Positions 14,247-48,500 of a stretch of DNA of 64,000 nt are shown here, in pieces. The notes below the pieces were generated by a model. That model had not been told where the DNA came from, made no database searches, and was given only the letters and a program-made list of their open reading frames with translations. The position numbers and the translations under genes are program-made. Location of the stretch: NCBI GenBank assembly GCA_025062325.1, contig JANXAL010000117.1:1-64000 (forward strand). The letters are read 5' to 3'. This stretch comes from Roseiflexus sp. (GTDB taxonomy: Bacteria > Chloroflexota > Chloroflexia > Chloroflexales > Roseiflexaceae). Every line of letters begins with the position of its first letter. Position 1 is the stretch's first letter.

Positions 14247-16670
14247 ATGGTTAAACTATCGCAACGGCAGCAAATTCTCACAACAATCTTGCTTCAAGGC
14301 ATGCTCGCCTTCCTGATTGCACTTACAATCTGGTATGTCCCGGCGTATACCACTGCTACTTTCCTCTTCGATTATCTCTACGAATCTGAGTTCAATGGAG
14401 TCGACACCTACTCCTGGACGCCTCCTTCACTCTCATTAACTATACCTCTCGAACGAATCACCGATCACGTCGTCATAAAGCAACGATTGACAGCGGGACC
14501 GAATTACGAAGACACCCGCCAACTGAAAGTATCAGTGGATTTCGCGCTCAATTTACGTCCTTCTCATGATCTACGGTTTGACATAAAGGGCAGGGAACCT
14601 CGCATATATACCTATCTGCTACCCGCCTTCGGACATACACTTTCTATCGATTATCTTATCGATCCTCTGAAGAATAACCTCGAGAGCGATCGGAGACGCT
14701 TGGGCTTCGTTATATTTAATACGGCGGTAGACTATCCTGAAGAGTCAAAATTTCCATCGTGGAGTGCAATAACACTTCTTGGACTCCCCTCTTTATCTTT
14801 TCTGGCCAGTGTAGCATGGTTCGGGAATAGAAGCAATCTCTGGGTTTTATCCGTAATAGTAACCGGTATCGTTATCTGGATGTACATTTACTCCCCTAAA
14901 GACATATTACTCCCCAGCTTCCCCATCTTCGCAAGCTTGCTCACATTAACCGTTTTTGGCATAATAATCTATCGAATGTCGCACCAATATCGCAATTGGG
15001 AAAAATTAACAATTTACAGTTTAGCTATTACTATAGTTCCGTGGATATACATAGTATCAGGAGCGAGCAAGAATATAGGTCAGCACTGGCAATACTATCA
15101 ACCGACCCTGTGGATTTTACTAACTATACCCCTGATGGCCGGAACACTGATCATTGTACTGAAACCGAGAAAAAATATAGCTTTCGCTATCGGGTTCCTA
15201 TCGCTTTGCAGTGTCACTATATGGGGTTATACCAATTTTTATCATTACTTTCTCACTTACGGTCACGACTTTACTGCATACTATAATGCAGCGCTAAGAT
15301 TTCAGAGCAACCAGCCTATATATGACCTCGAAAGAGCGCAACTAGAATATTTCTCGCCATACATTTATAAATACCCGACCTTTTTTCTGTTCTTTATCTT
15401 ACCTGCGATAAGATTACCGCTCGAGGGCGCTACATTAGTATTTAGAACATTTATCGCAGCAGCAACCGTATCTGCAATCCTTATAATTATTCTTTCCCGC
15501 AATCCCCTAAGAACCTCCTTCGCCGTCTTATCGATTTTGACCGCAATCAACTTCTCCCCTCTCCAATGGTCAATACACCTCGGACAGGTAGACCCAATAC
15601 TTCTCTTAGGAATATCATTCGCAATAGTTCTATGGAATCGATACTACGGAATAATATCGTCGATAGTTTTAGGCGTTTTAGGATTGATCAAGATCTACCC
15701 TCTGTTTACTCTCTTAATCCCTATAATCGAACGTAAGTGGACACGTGTGGTTATCGTAATAGTAACTGTTAGCTTATGCTGGATATGTTCGACATTATAC
15801 TTTGGTTGGGAAAACGAGCGCAACTTCTGGCAATTAACCACGATGATTCCTGGCGCAAGAACTGCTCGCCTGAGCAATCAATCAATCTATGCAGTCATCG
15901 CTCGACTACGAGATCCAGCGTCCGCTCATGCCCGAGGTGAAAATATCGTGTCTTTTATTGGTAATATAGGACATTTCTCCTTTTCTTTGCTAATACTTAG
16001 CGTAACTATCTATACTATCTGGCGATTACGCCGCATATTACATCATATTCGATGGGAAGCACACAGCCTTTTGATATGCTGTATGCTGCTCCTTATTCCT
16101 GTCGCATGGGATCACTATCAAGTCCTCCTGCTCATTCCACTACTGATTGGTCTTGATTATACATTCAAATATCATCGCCACTCCGTTACGATGATTTTTA
16201 TCATTGCACATACTCTGCTTACCTTTGGCACATTCAAAAACATCGCCGTTAACATTATGCCAAGTTCCATCGTTCTGTTCTTTGCCTCTTATCGCACATT
16301 TGGTCTCCTCATTCTGTGGGCATGGTGGGTCTACGTCTTGTTGCACTGGCAGTCCCGTGAGGAGACCTCGCCAACTGTCCAGTTGCCAGAAACGCCGTCT
16401 AGTGGTACGATCAGCGCAACCCTACCCCGGTCGGGGGCGGTGCGTTGTTTCGAGCCAACACAGTTTCGAAGGGAGTCGCGCTCCGAAATTATGGGCTATG
16501 CGGCGGGCCGCAGATACCCACGGGCCGACACCCACCTGCCTTGTGCAGGTTCGAAACCTCTCCGTCTCGCGCCGGAGGTGGGGTTTTCTCCTGTTTCAGA
16601 TCTAGCGCTATGCTGTTCCTCATTTACGGTCCAGATGAATACGGGCGGAGCGAGACGCTTGCGGCGCTGA
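14247..16670 (+). CDS. GT87-like (DUF2029) polytopic membrane glycosyltransferase
   Basis: The protein has about a dozen membrane segments. After the first one comes a soluble extracytoplasmic stretch (about residues 40-165), then a second block beginning with the loop HDFTAYYNAALRFQSNQPIYD, characteristic of GT87/DUF2029 polyprenyl-phosphate-mannose-dependent transferases. The gene is clearly AT-richer than its neighbours, with many ATA, TTA and AAT codons, which suggests transfer. Beyond about residue 715 (16390) the frame runs through a structured, GC-rich element and overlaps holA by 61 bp. That Arg/Pro/Cys-rich tail does not look like the enzyme, so the true stop was probably lost. The chosen ATG (MVKLSQRQQ) avoids a 13-codon non-membrane extension. 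Confidence 0.75.
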   Translation: MVKLSQRQQILTTILLQGMLAFLIALTIWYVPAYTTATFLFDYLYESEFNGVDTYSWTPPSLSLTIPLERITDHVVIKQRLTAGPNYEDTRQLKVSVDFALNLRPSHDLRFDIKGREPRIYTYLLPAFGHTLSIDYLIDPLKNNLESDRRRLGFVIFNTAVDYPEESKFPSWSAITLLGLPSLSFLASVAWFGNRSNLWVLSVIVTGIVIWMYIYSPKDILLPSFPIFASLLTLTVFGIIIYRMSHQYRNWEKLTIYSLAITIVPWIYIVSGASKNIGQHWQYYQPTLWILLTIPLMAGTLIIVLKPRKNIAFAIGFLSLCSVTIWGYTNFYHYFLTYGHDFTAYYNAALRFQSNQPIYDLERAQLEYFSPYIYKYPTFFLFFILPAIRLPLEGATLVFRTFIAAATVSAILIIILSRNPLRTSFAVLSILTAINFSPLQWSIHLGQVDPILLLGISFAIVLWNRYYGIISSIVLGVLGLIKIYPLFTLLIPIIERKWTRVVIVIVTVSLCWICSTLYFGWENERNFWQLTTMIPGARTARLSNQSIYAVIARLRDPASAHARGENIVSFIGNIGHFSFSLLILSVTIYTIWRLRRILHHIRWEAHSLLICCMLLLIPVAWDHYQVLLLIPLLIGLDYTFKYHRHSVTMIFIIAHTLLTFGTFKNIAVNIMPSSIVLFFASYRTFGLLILWAWWVYVLLHWQSREETSPTVQLPETPSSGTISATLPRSGAVRCFEPTQFRRESRSEIMGYAAGRRYPRADTHLPCAGSKPLRLAPEVGFSPVSDLALCCSSFTVQMNTGGARRLRR
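16420..16605 (+). other. Highly structured element between the glycosyltransferase and holA (possible structured RNA)
   Basis: Successive hairpins can be drawn. 16444-16459: GTTG/CAAC. 16464-16488: TTTCG-GGAG with CTCCGAAA. 16493-16519: TATGCGGC-GG-GCCGCA-ATA closed by GGG/CCC. 16530-16584: a closing helix ACCCACC/GGTGGGGT enclosing CCTGC/GCAGG, AGGTT-CGA-AACCT and CTCCG/CGGAG stems. It ends in GGGGTTTTCTCC just before the holA start. It matches no RNA family I recognise. It could be a holA leader, a separate RNA or a palindromic repeat. Confidence 0.45.
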
Positions 16671-22563: not shown

Positions 22564-22739
22564 CTCACAAGCGGAGCGTCTTTGGGTGCGATGGATGTTT
22601 TCCGCGTCCTGACGCCCTTGTCCCCCTCATCCCCCTTACCCCTTTTCTCCCACAGGGGGAGAAGGGGGAGGGTGCACATCCTAACGCTCAGCACGGGCGA
22701 TGCAACGGAAGGGCTCGCCAAAAATCTACACTCGTGAAA
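22564..22739 (-). mobile_element. MITE-like element, complete 176-bp copy (minus orientation)
   Basis: On the minus strand it reads TTCACGAGTGTAGATTTTTG at one end and ends in CGCTCCGCTTGTGAG, with the internal CCCCCTTCTCCC/GGGAGAAAAGGGG palindrome. Its length equals that of the other complete copies. Confidence 0.75.
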
Positions 22740-22975
22740 CGGCAGGGCGTCCTGATGCCCAGAGCGGGCGATACGACGCGAGGGCTTGCCGAAAAACGCT
22801 CCACTTGTGAGCATCCCCCTGCTCCCTTCTCCCACCCTCTGCGCCCCCTGCTCCCCCCGCTTGCGAGGGGCAGGGGGTCGGGAAGAGAAGGAGGAGTTCG
22901 CGCATCCTAACGCTCAACACGGGCGATGCGACATAAGGGTCTGCCAAACATCTACACTTGCGAGACGGAGGGCGC
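22740..22975 (-). mobile_element. Two partial MITE-like copies in tandem
   Basis: About 22745-22810 is a half element ending in AAAAACGCTCCACTTGTGAG. About 22811-22971 is a second, longer variant with an extra CCCGCTTGCGAGGGGCAGGG hairpin in its middle, ending in CATCTACACTTGCGAG. The remaining bases to 23048 show no gene. Confidence 0.55.
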
Positions 22976-23048: not shown

Positions 23049-24452
23049 TCAGCTCTGCGTTAGCCGATGCACAGCGCGCACAGCAGCGTCGCAATCCGAC
23101 GCCGCGACAACCGTGCTGATCGAGCACTCTGATGAACCCTGGGCAATCGCAATTACGTTAATGTGGCTCTCGGCAAGCGCGCCGAAGACCCGCGCAGCAA
23201 CTCCGGGCGTGTCGCGCATTCCCGCACCGACTGCGGTGACGATCGCCACATCGTCGCGCGCCCAGATGCGGTCGATGTCGCGCCGTGCCAGCTCCATCGC
23301 CAGATTATGCTCCAGCGCATAGGTCACCTGTGGCACAGTATTGGATGGCACGACGAAGCAGATGCTCTGCTCCGACGACGCCTGCGAGATCATTAGCACA
23401 TTCGCGCCAACACTGGCGACTGCGCCAAAAGTGCGCGCCGCAATGCCAGGAACGCCGATCATGCCTCGTCCCTCAACGGTGACCAGGCTCAGATTGCGAA
23501 CAGCAGTTACAGCTTTGACTGTCTGCCCTTTTGGATCGACCTCCTGCACGACCAGCGTACCGGGGTGGGACGGATTGAAAGTGTTGCGCACCCGCAGCGG
23601 AATGCCGCGCTCGACGACCGGGCGAATAGTGCGTGGGTGGAGCACTTTCGCGCCAAAATATGCCAGTTCCCCCATTTCAGCGTAGGAGAGGACCGGGATG
23701 ACGCGGGCATCGGGCGCTAGCCGCGGATCAGTGGTCATCACGCCATCGACGTCGGTGTAGATATCGACTTCGTCGGCATCAAGCGCCGCACCGATGATCG
23801 CGCCGCTGTAATCGCTGCCGCCGCGCCCCAGGGTGGTCGTTACGCCCTGCTCGGTTGCGCCGATGAAACCGGTGACTACCGGCACAATCCCGCGTTCGAG
23901 CAGCGGCAACAGCCGCGCGCGGGTTCGTTCGCGCGTCACATCCTGCAACGGACGCGCATCACCGAAATGCGCCGTTGTGATCACGAACTCAGTTGCGTCA
24001 AGCGCCTCGGCGGAGATGCCGCGCGCGCGCAGCGCTGCAGCGACCACGCGCACGCTCATGCGCTCGCCAAGACTCGAGATGGCGTCAATGGCGCGCGGCG
24101 ACAGCTCATTCAGTACAGCGACGCTGTGACACAACAGGCTGAACTCGTCGATCAGACGGAAGACCTGATCGCTGACATCTGCGCGCTCACGCTCATCGGG
24201 CACGAGTTCCGCCAGCGCAGCGGCGTGCTTCTCGCGCAGCAGACGATCCACCTCACGAAACGTTTGCTGATCACCGGACGCAGCCGTCGTTGCGCCACGG
24301 ATCAGCATGTCGGTGACACCGCTCATTGCCGAGACGACCAGCACAACCTTCCCCCATGCCGCACGCTGCGCCTCAGTAATTGCGGCGACCGCTCGAATGG
24401 CGGCAGCATCGCCAACTGACGTTCCACCGAATTTCATGACCAGTAAAGGCAT
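23049..24452 (-). CDS. lysC: Aspartate kinase, monofunctional
   Basis: A 467-residue enzyme phosphorylating aspartate, the first step to Lys/Thr/Met. The kinase domain has KFGGTSVG at residues 7-14 and GRGGSDYSGAIIGAALDADE. Two C-terminal ACT domains follow (GVPGIAARTFGAVASVGANV and DTPGVAARVFGALAESHINV), indicating feedback control by amino acids. No homoserine dehydrogenase domain is present. GAGGAGG lies eight bases before the chosen ATG; a 26-codon extension upstream overlaps thrC and is rejected. It follows thrC with 19 bp between them, so both are probably read from the attenuated thr promoter. Confidence 0.95.
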   Translation of the reverse strand: MPLLVMKFGGTSVGDAAAIRAVAAITEAQRAAWGKVVLVVSAMSGVTDMLIRGATTAASGDQQTFREVDRLLREKHAAALAELVPDERERADVSDQVFRLIDEFSLLCHSVAVLNELSPRAIDAISSLGERMSVRVVAAALRARGISAEALDATEFVITTAHFGDARPLQDVTRERTRARLLPLLERGIVPVVTGFIGATEQGVTTTLGRGGSDYSGAIIGAALDADEVDIYTDVDGVMTTDPRLAPDARVIPVLSYAEMGELAYFGAKVLHPRTIRPVVERGIPLRVRNTFNPSHPGTLVVQEVDPKGQTVKAVTAVRNLSLVTVEGRGMIGVPGIAARTFGAVASVGANVLMISQASSEQSICFVVPSNTVPQVTYALEHNLAMELARRDIDRIWARDDVAIVTAVGAGMRDTPGVAARVFGALAESHINVIAIAQGSSECSISTVVAASDCDAAVRAVHRLTQS

Positions 24453-24471: not shown

Positions 24472-25512
24472 CTACCAGCCCAACCATCGACGAATAGCGT
24501 CCATATCTGCTGGAACCGGTTCAGGCGCATCGAACTGTTCCACTGCCAGTCCGGGGTCTTTCAAACCGTGACCGGTAAGCACTGCCACATAACGCGCGTC
24601 CGGGTCGGCGCGCCCTTCGGCGATCACCTTGCGCAACCCGGCAACGCCAGCCGCCGACGCCGGTTCGACGAACACCCCCTCCAGGCGCGCCAGATCGCGC
24701 CAGCTCTGCAGGATCTGAGCGTCGCTCACGCAGTCAATCAGCCCGTCCGACTGATCGCGCGCCTCGAGCGCATAGCGCCAGCTTGCCGGGTTGCCGATGC
24801 GGATCGCAGTTGCGATAGTTTCCGGGTGTTCGACCGGATGCCCGCGCACGATCGGGGCAGCGCCTTCCGCCTGAAAGCCGAGCATTTTTGGCAGCCGGTC
24901 AATGCGCCCCGCTTCGTAGTAGCGGCGAAACCCCATCCAGTAGGCAGTGATGTTCCCAGCATTGCCGACCGGCAGGCAGAGTGCGTCCGGCGGACCTCCG
25001 AGCGCATCGCAGATTTCGTAAGCGGCGGTCGCCTGCCCATCGAGACGGTAGGGATTTACCGAGTTGACAATAGTGACTGGATACGTCTGCGCCAGATCAC
25101 GCACAATGTGCAACGCCCGGTCGAAGTTGCCCTCGATCACCAGCAGCCGCGCACCGTACATAAGCGCCTGCGCCAGTTTGCCGAGCGCAATCTTCCCGGC
25201 AGGCACCACAACTATCGACTCGATGCCGGCGTGCGCTGCATAGGCTGCCGCGCTGGCGGAGGTGTTGCCGGTCGAGGCGCAGATCACCGAGGTTGCGCCC
25301 GCTTCCAGGGCTTTGGCGACCGCCACAACCATGCCGCGATCCTTGAACGAGCCGGTCGGGTTGGCGCCTTCATATTTCAAAAACAACTCGCGCACACCAA
25401 TGGCGCGCGCCAGCCGTGGCGCGTAGATCAGCGGCGTATCGCCCTCGCCGAGGGTGAGGCGCGGCGTTTGTTCCGTGAGCGGCAAAAATGCGCCATACCG
25501 GTCGAAGAGCAT
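24472..25512 (-). CDS. thrC: Threonine synthase
   Basis: A PLP enzyme converting phosphohomoserine to threonine. Its PLP lysine is in NPTGSFKDRG (about residue 57), the phosphate-binding loop in VICASTGNTSASAAAYAAHA, and LPVGNAGNITAYWMGFRR is typical of class II ThrC. The ATG at 25512 is preceded by GGAGGAAGGC. An ATG four codons earlier (25524) is also in frame but would overlap that ribosome-binding site. It is first gene after a Thr-codon-rich leader peptide and a rho-independent terminator, so its expression is probably attenuated by charged tRNA-Thr. lysC follows 19 bp downstream. Confidence 0.95.
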   Translation of the reverse strand: MLFDRYGAFLPLTEQTPRLTLGEGDTPLIYAPRLARAIGVRELFLKYEGANPTGSFKDRGMVVAVAKALEAGATSVICASTGNTSASAAAYAAHAGIESIVVVPAGKIALGKLAQALMYGARLLVIEGNFDRALHIVRDLAQTYPVTIVNSVNPYRLDGQATAAYEICDALGGPPDALCLPVGNAGNITAYWMGFRRYYEAGRIDRLPKMLGFQAEGAAPIVRGHPVEHPETIATAIRIGNPASWRYALEARDQSDGLIDCVSDAQILQSWRDLARLEGVFVEPASAAGVAGLRKVIAEGRADPDARYVAVLTGHGLKDPGLAVEQFDAPEPVPADMDAIRRWLGW

Positions 25513-25530
25513 GCCTTCCTCCATTGCCGA

Positions 25531-25567
25531 AATAGAAACGCCCCCATCCTTTGCAGGAGGGGGCGTT
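25531..25567 (-). terminator. Rho-independent terminator of the thr attenuator
   Basis: On the minus strand AACGCCCCCTCCTG-CAAAGGATGGGGGCGTT forms a strong stem (arms at 25555-25567 and 25536-25550), followed by TTTCTATTT. It sits between the leader peptide stop and thrC. A segment GGAGGGG (complement of 25598-25604) just upstream can pair with the 5' arm CCCCTCC as antiterminator. Confidence 0.85.
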
Positions 25568-25583
25568 CATCGCATCCGGGCTA

Positions 25584-25676
25584 TCAGCGCCCAAAAACCC
25601 CTCCACGACAAACTAGCCCGGCGGTAGTGGCCAGGGTAGTCGTCGTGGCGGTAGTTGTACAAATAATTGCACACAT
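25584..25676 (-). CDS. Threonine-rich leader peptide (thrL-like) of the thrC-lysC operon
   Basis: A 30-codon reading frame starts with ATG at 25676 and ends with TGA at 25584. Residues 4-18 read IICTTTATTTTLATT: nine of the 30 codons are Thr and two adjacent ones Ile. This is the arrangement of the E. coli thr leader (Thr and Ile codons sensed by the ribosome). It begins 27 nt after the predicted transcription start and ends 17 bp before the terminator stem. No good Shine-Dalgarno is visible. Ribosome stalling on Thr codons would leave GGAGGGG free to disrupt the terminator. The function is inferred from architecture; codon content is seen directly. Confidence 0.8.
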   Translation of the reverse strand: MCAIICTTTATTTTLATTAGLVCRGGVFGR

Positions 25677-25709
25677 ACCGGGCTGCTGGCGTCTGTTGCT
25701 TACGCCGCT

Positions 25710-25738
25710 ACTATACCCGGGTTACGTCGGTATGTCAA
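25710..25738 (-). promoter_or_regulatory. Promoter of the thr leader-thrC-lysC operon
   Basis: The minus strand has TTGACA (25733-25738) and TATAGT (25710-25715) with a 17-bp spacer, directly upstream of the leader peptide. Confidence 0.85.
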
Positions 25739-25744
25739 GTTGGG

Positions 25745-26010
25745 TTAAGAGAACCAAGAGCTGAGCGCTGAGATGCGCACCTTGCACCGCTCCCGTCACT
25801 CATGCAAAGGTGCAAATGCACAGGGTTCTCGTTATCACTCGTCACTTGTTACTCACCATACTCGTCCCACCCTACGCCAATCCCCGCACACTTGCAAAGG
25901 TGCAAAGGCGCTGTACTCGTCACTCGTCACCCATCACTCGTCACTCGTCACTTGCCACTCATCACCGATCACTCGTCACTCATCACTCACCGCTCGCTTC
26001 CCTCCTCACT
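25745..26010. repeat. Degenerate CACTCGTCACTCATCA repeat and GCAAAGGTGCAAA pair
   Basis: TGCAAAGGTGCAAA occurs at about 25803 and 25894. From about 25915 to 25995 the DNA is an octamer-like repeat of variants of CACTCGTCACTCATCA. No gene. Confidence 0.7.
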
Positions 26011-29883: not shown

Positions 29884-30002
29884 GCTTAGAGTTCTGCCAG
29901 CAAGCCCTCACGTCGCATCTCTCGCTCTGGGCGCCAGGACGCTCCACCTCCCCCTTCTCCCCCCAACCTCCCGCATGCGGGGGCGCAGGGGGGTAGGAGA
30001 AG
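29875..30002 (+). mobile_element. Half MITE-like element with inserted CCGCATGCGGG hairpin
   Basis: It begins CTCCTCATAGGCTTAGAGTT, continues with AGCAAGCCCTCACGTCGCAT, and ends in the central palindrome, here enlarged by CCTCCCGCATGCGGGGGCGC. The complete copy at 30003 follows directly. It overlaps the last codons of the M61 gene. Confidence 0.55.
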
Positions 30003-30178
30003 CTCACAAGTGCAGATTTTTTGGGCAAGCCCTTATGGCGCATCACCCGTTTTGAGCGTCAGGATGCGCAAACTCTCCCTTCTCCCCTTGTGGGGGAAAG
30101 GGGCAGGGGGGATGAGGGGACCAAGGGCGTCGGAACGCAGAAAACGTCTCTCGTCTCTGAAAAACTCTACACTATGAA
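30003..30178 (+). mobile_element. MITE-like element, complete 176-bp copy
   Basis: It starts CTCACAAGTGCAGATTTTTT and ends AAAAACTCTACACTATGAAG, with the internal TCTCCCCTTGTGGGGGAAAG palindrome. It lies between the M61 peptidase and the amidase. The remaining bases to 30267 show nothing else but a ribosome-binding site. Confidence 0.75.
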
Positions 30179-48289: not shown

Positions 48290-48317
48290 GAAATGCAGAA
48301 TTCCATATTGTCGGATG

Positions 48318-48500
48318 ACGGGCGTGGGAGAGTACCGCATAAGCGGTCGCCGAAGGAGCAAGCCAGGGAAGCCGGACCCTGCGCGAATCTCTCAGGCTAA
48401 AGGACTGCGCCCCGACGACCCTCTGGAGAGCCCGTTCATTCGGGCGCCGACGGAGAAACCCGCCATGCGGGGCATCTCACAGGTCAGCGGACAGAGGTCA
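48318..48500 (+). ncRNA. Tandem glycine riboswitch, second aptamer diverged
   Basis: The first aptamer has the conserved blocks GGGAGAG, GCCGAAGGAGCAA and AATCTCTCAGGCTAAAGGAC. A second copy follows: CTCTGGAGAGCCCG, GCGCCGACGGAGAAAC (consensus GCCGAAGGAGCAA altered) and ATCTCACAGG...GGACAGAGG (consensus CTCAGGCAAAAGGACAGAGG altered). The arrangement (aptamer 1, short linker, aptamer 2, terminator, gcvT) is that of glycine-activated ON switches. The changes in the binding core of aptamer 2 suggest it may bind poorly or serve as structural partner. Confidence 0.92.

Follow-up and report, generated by a model that had tools for sequence, protein, structure and literature searches.

Introduction

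Leader-peptide attenuators are documented in Proteobacteria, Actinobacteria and some Firmicutes (PMC2965389, PMC1262725, PMC9413887). The enterobacterial thr leader thrL (Rfam RF00506, Thr_leader) is the closest in kind to the locus described here, with a Thr-rich leader peptide, mutually exclusive hairpins and an intrinsic terminator placed before the threonine genes thrABC; the E. coli thr leader uses eight ACC codons (PMC1183508). The leader-peptide attenuators of trp, leu, ilv and his genes in Actinobacteria and Firmicutes are likewise ribosome-mediated and lie outside the Proteobacteria, those cited for Firmicutes being histidine attenuators (PMC2965389, PMC9413887), and in a survey of Actinobacteria threonine operons yielded no conserved RNA element (PMC1262725). 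The accessible portion of an Rfam RNA motif survey that included five Chloroflexi genomes makes no mention of a Thr leader there (PMC3766115), and we found no thr attenuator reported for Chloroflexota in the searchable literature; the survey of Lopatovskaya et al. 2010, which lies outside that scope, could have predicted one.

We describe here a leader in a 64,000-nucleotide stretch of Roseiflexus DNA (the window) that is very probably a classical ribosome-mediated transcription attenuator, sensing threonyl-tRNA and controlling the thrC-lysC operon. It has the same parts as the enterobacterial thr leader, but it precedes thrC-lysC rather than thrABC, its Ile codons are not conserved, and across Roseiflexaceae leaders Thr is written with all four of its codons. 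Against Thr_leader it scores 18.9 bits, where the gathering score is 55, and the match is lost in a narrower search; the leader at locus L022 scores 22.1 bits. Membership of that Rfam family was rejected because the score is so far under threshold, and the origin of the Roseiflexus leader is most likely independent of the enterobacterial one. Classical attenuation would thereby extend to a deep phylum of thermophilic, phototrophic bacteria.

The leader region upstream of thrC-lysC

The whole attenuator region occupies 25738-25541 of the minus strand and comprises a promoter, a leader frame, a GGAGGGG segment and an intrinsic terminator. Its features, and those of the genes behind it, are as follows.

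25733..25738, minus strand: -35 hexamer TTGACA (TTGACA in 16/16 family leaders)
25710..25715, minus strand: -10 hexamer TATAGT (TATAGT or a near variant in relatives)
25584..25676, minus strand: leader peptide ORF, MCAIICTTTATTTTLATTAGLVCRGGVFGR plus stop, 30 codons with 9 Thr codons and 2 Ile (Thr-rich frame in 16/16 family loci)
25623..25658, minus strand: putative regulatory Thr codons, codons 7-18 of the leader ORF (from comparison of family leaders)
25640..25648, minus strand: segment 1, CCACGACGA, within the Thr codons, pairing with segment 2 (from folding; in 7 relatives 95% of cells are paired, with one change that affects both sides)
25598..25611, minus strand: segment 2, TTGTCGTGGAGGGG (95-98% paired)
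25604-25598, minus strand: GGAGGGG, antiterminator 5' strand and part of segment 2 (from the sequence)
25577..25593, minus strand: small hairpin TGGGCGCTGATAGCCCG, overlapping the stop codon, within the antiterminator loop (86% paired, one G-C to C-G change)
25556..25563, minus strand: segment 3, CCCCCTCC, terminator 5' arm and antiterminator 3' strand (from pairing counts in relatives)
25541..25549, minus strand: segment 4, GGATGGGGG, terminator 3' arm, then CGTTTCTATTT (from pairing counts in relatives)
25522-25513, minus strand: thrC ribosome-binding site GGAGGAAGGC, directly before the preferred thrC start
24472..25512, minus strand: thrC, threonine synthase (TIGR00260, 320.8 bits against a cut-off of 167.1)
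23049..24452, minus strand: lysC, aspartate kinase (NF004938, 534.6 bits against a cut-off of 528)

The promoter is of the sigma-70 type, with TTGACA (25738-25733) and TATAGT (25715-25710) set apart by a 17-nt spacer and 11 of 12 positions matching the consensus, and transcription would presumably start from it. No clear Shine-Dalgarno sequence precedes the leader ATG. In genus g8 (L017-L019, L022, L023 and L027) the ATG mostly lies 6-7 nt past the -10 hexamer, which implies an attenuator transcript that is probably leaderless there. Across the 64-kb window, no short ORF but the leader ORF has seven or more Thr within 12 residues (random windows have a mean of 0.025), the leader RNA folds with a z of -6.5 against dinucleotide shuffles, and a pattern search for a second copy in the same genome matched only the site upstream of thrC.

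A preliminary description had drawn attention to a minus-strand consensus promoter, a frame of 30 codons that includes nine for Thr and two for Ile, and a GGAGGGG able to pair with the terminator 5' arm. The promoter is there, the frame lies at 25676-25584, and the two complementary strands are at 25604-25598 and 25563-25556. The Ile codons did not hold up, as their number varies from 0 to 3 per leader across the family, and dual sensing of Thr and Ile was rejected on that ground.

Conservation among relatives

ThrC orthologs were drawn from 40 relatives and then from the family and the class, and the family count covers the 16 Roseiflexaceae loci, in 5 genera, that have upstream DNA. All 16 carry a Thr-rich leader of equal layout, in which the TTGACA promoter is followed by the Thr-rich frame, a terminator with a C-rich 5' arm, and thrC. 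The alignment upstream of thrC that had been put forward as a check of the thrL-like reading thus recovers the Thr frame, the promoter and the terminator/antiterminator pair throughout, and together with the folding described below this agrees with a threonine attenuator before thrC-lysC. The frames have 24-31 codons with 7-12 Thr codons in one frame, although the leader frame at L013 may begin 8 codons before the counted start.

The leader peptide itself is poorly conserved apart from its Thr residues. In-frame Thr averages 9.3 over the 16 leaders, compared to 0.9 and 0.5 for the two remaining frames, and pairs of the 7 closest leaders differ by 68 Thr-to-Thr synonymous codon changes, from which we conclude that Thr content is kept while the peptide varies. 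The retained feature is a supply of Thr codons rather than a peptide, as expected of a sensor. We regard it as highly improbable that the ORF encodes a functional small protein next to an unrelated or constitutive terminator: a length of exactly 30 codons, shared by 8 of 16 species, speaks for such a protein, but positions not occupied by Thr vary freely (of the single-base codon differences, 130 are nonsynonymous and 91 synonymous), the genus g8 peptides have no evident resemblance beyond their Thr runs, and the end of the ORF carries the antiterminator.

The leader is absent at 10 thrC loci from two sister families and at 46 thrC loci of other bacteria, the two loci with a leader in that wider set, L032 and L033, both being Roseiflexaceae; thrC of L032, an uncultured Roseiflexus MAG, is 96% identical to that of the window. 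Where Roseiflexaceae members with a different thrC type were tested, that thrC had no Thr leader, and no convincing Thr leader precedes homoserine dehydrogenase in Roseiflexaceae and the sister families.

In Herpetosiphon-like relatives (L021 and L024-L026) the thrC promoter is closely followed by the short hairpin CCCTTTTCC...GGGAAGGGG and its T-tract, but by no Thr-rich frame, which is perhaps another kind of leader control.

A leader that binds a protein or a metabolite, such as a T-box or riboswitch, with a fortuitous Thr-rich frame would also contain a terminator, and thrC of the Herpetosiphon-like relatives is indeed preceded by a terminator but not by a Thr frame. We nonetheless find this explanation scarcely credible, as neither the window leader nor its relatives match any Rfam riboswitch or T-box, and the Thr richness recurs in 16 leaders, in a single frame each time.

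Alternative helices and modelled switching

The G/C-rich intrinsic terminator spans 25563-25541 of the minus strand, between the leader ORF and thrC. Its T-tract in the window, GTTTCTATTT, is imperfect, and one could propose that the alternative hairpins govern access to the thrC ribosome-binding site instead of transcription, as is known for some leader-peptide systems (PMC9413887). Such translational control is very unlikely here, given that the ribosome-binding site (25522-25513) lies approximately 18 nt past the hairpin and outside it, and that the genus g8 terminator consists of a G/C-rich stem followed by TTTTTG, typical of intrinsic termination.

Helix pairing was scored in the seven closest leaders, which align almost gap-free. 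Cells are paired in 95% of cases for helix 1:2, 97.6% for the antiterminator and 100% for the terminator, while in slid controls the first set reaches approximately 40-60% and the G/C-rich antiterminator 67-86%. Double-sided changes are few, and covariation is weak evidence here; the compensatory stem changes sought in the preliminary description are present in small number, covariation being slight because the G/C-rich arms hardly vary. Stronger sequence evidence comes from complementarity that recurs in leaders too divergent to align well, and GGGAGGG or GGAGGGG is present in all leaders of 4 genera. The predicted switching segments are the Thr-codon arm CCACGACGA, UUGUCGUGG-AGGGG and the terminator 5' arm.

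In the folded window leader the antiterminator GGAGGGG:CCCCUCC encloses two small hairpins, one of which pairs TAGCCCGG with the GGGC that closes the frame rather than with CCGGGCTA. The switch originally proposed, in which AGCCCGG, CCGGGCTA and TAGCCCGG alternate between 1:2 and 2:3 pairing, was rejected: the segments exist, but only 68-70% of cells are paired in the seven closest relatives.

The following course of events is very probable. When charged Thr-tRNA is scarce, a ribosome would stall at the leader Thr codons, which hold segment 1, leaving segment 2 (GGAGGGG) free to capture CCCCUCC before the terminator 3' arm is made; with the antiterminator formed, RNA polymerase would continue into thrC-lysC. 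With ample Thr, the ribosome would reach the UGA, 11 nt past GGAGGGG, and cover segment 2, such that the terminator forms and transcription ends. Modelling has identified a stop codon far down segment 2 as one of two designs for low basal read-through (PMC1183508). In many relatives, segment 2 of an untranslated leader would be masked by segment 1.

Folding restricted to the RNA downstream of the leading edge of a modelled ribosome is consistent with this scheme. With the ribosome stalled on Thr codons (mean of three Thr positions), upstream binding of the terminator 5' arm has a probability of 0.66-1.00, and with the ribosome at the stop codon it is 0.01-0.47. The stalled minus stop-codon difference has a mean of 0.65 compared to 0.18 in dinucleotide shuffles, a combined z of approximately 8.7 that is uncorrected for the relatedness of the leaders, and the shuffle tests on single leaders are modest, with 0 to 21% of shuffles reaching the observed value. 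The antiterminator is exclusive with the terminator and, in these folds, favored by stalling on Thr codons. When the complete transcript is folded at equilibrium, the terminator prevails in almost all ribosome states, and the choice between the two structures must on this model be kinetic, as in known attenuators. Folded without a ribosome, the terminator arm of the window is still paired upstream (0.93), and the fold thus gives no support for masking by segment 1 in this species. Under these conditions about 9 of 16 species show clearly low capture of segment 3, the window not being among them.

Downstream genes

The thrC start is most likely at 25512, behind GGAGGAAGGC, rather than at 25524, and the corrected lysC start at 24452 lies 19 nt past the thrC stop codon. 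The two genes are adjacent at 19/19 Roseiflexaceae loci, in keeping with the early suggestion that lysC falls under the same leader. In the Herpetosiphon-like relatives, which are without the Thr leader, lysC also lies 3' of thrC. Aspartate kinase, the entry to Lys, Met and Thr synthesis, would in this way be put under threonine control in Roseiflexaceae. We detected no thrB of the TIGR00191 type in 26 Roseiflexaceae genomes; their homoserine kinase must belong to a different type or have been replaced.

Branched-chain leaders before ilvB

The same genomes contain an apparent branched-chain attenuator before ilvB, encoding for example MNRRNASLLLSLILVALIIITGL. The Roseiflexaceae ilvB leaders have GGGAGG and a CCCCTCCC-type terminator (L165-L170 and L226-L245 are the regions upstream of ilvB in Chloroflexales), and they resemble the Thr leader in their TTGACA promoter, the position of GGGAGG near the stop codon, the terminator type and a similar modelled response to stalling. 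They differ from it in being Leu/Ile/Val-rich, in preceding another gene and in their wider spread. Short Leu/Ile/Val-rich frames precede ilvB at 10 of 14 loci of a Chloroflexaceae-like family (f4) and at 3 of 4 loci in one other family of the order, compared to 2 of 300 random control stretches, and several more families within the class also have them; family names other than Roseiflexaceae are inferred, partly from gene content. The ilvB leader has no Rfam match, and a scan upstream of trpE and hisG found no Trp or His leaders.

Leader-peptide attenuation thus looks native to the class; its Thr version was seen in Roseiflexaceae alone. We think it reasonably likely that Chloroflexia has its own independently evolved set of ribosome-mediated attenuators, undescribed for the phylum and of one shared design, in which the leader ORF ends in a G-rich antiterminator segment and the terminator has a C-rich arm, with thr attenuators in Roseiflexaceae, ilv attenuators much more widely, and leaderless forms in some genera. 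Together the Thr and ilvB leaders suggest that Chloroflexota use transcription-translation coupling in amino-acid control, and that attenuators of this type evolve repeatedly.

Other features in the window

A tandem glycine riboswitch lies at 48315-48497 of the plus strand (71 and 37.6 bits) and a 6S RNA at 16416-16588 of the same strand (54.9 bits). Dispersed intergenic repeats of 64-84 nt, direct and inverted and 75-81% alike, occur at 22589-22968 and 29900-30153, and short GTGACGAGTGATGA-like repeats are present near 25820-26000, upstream of the thrC promoter.
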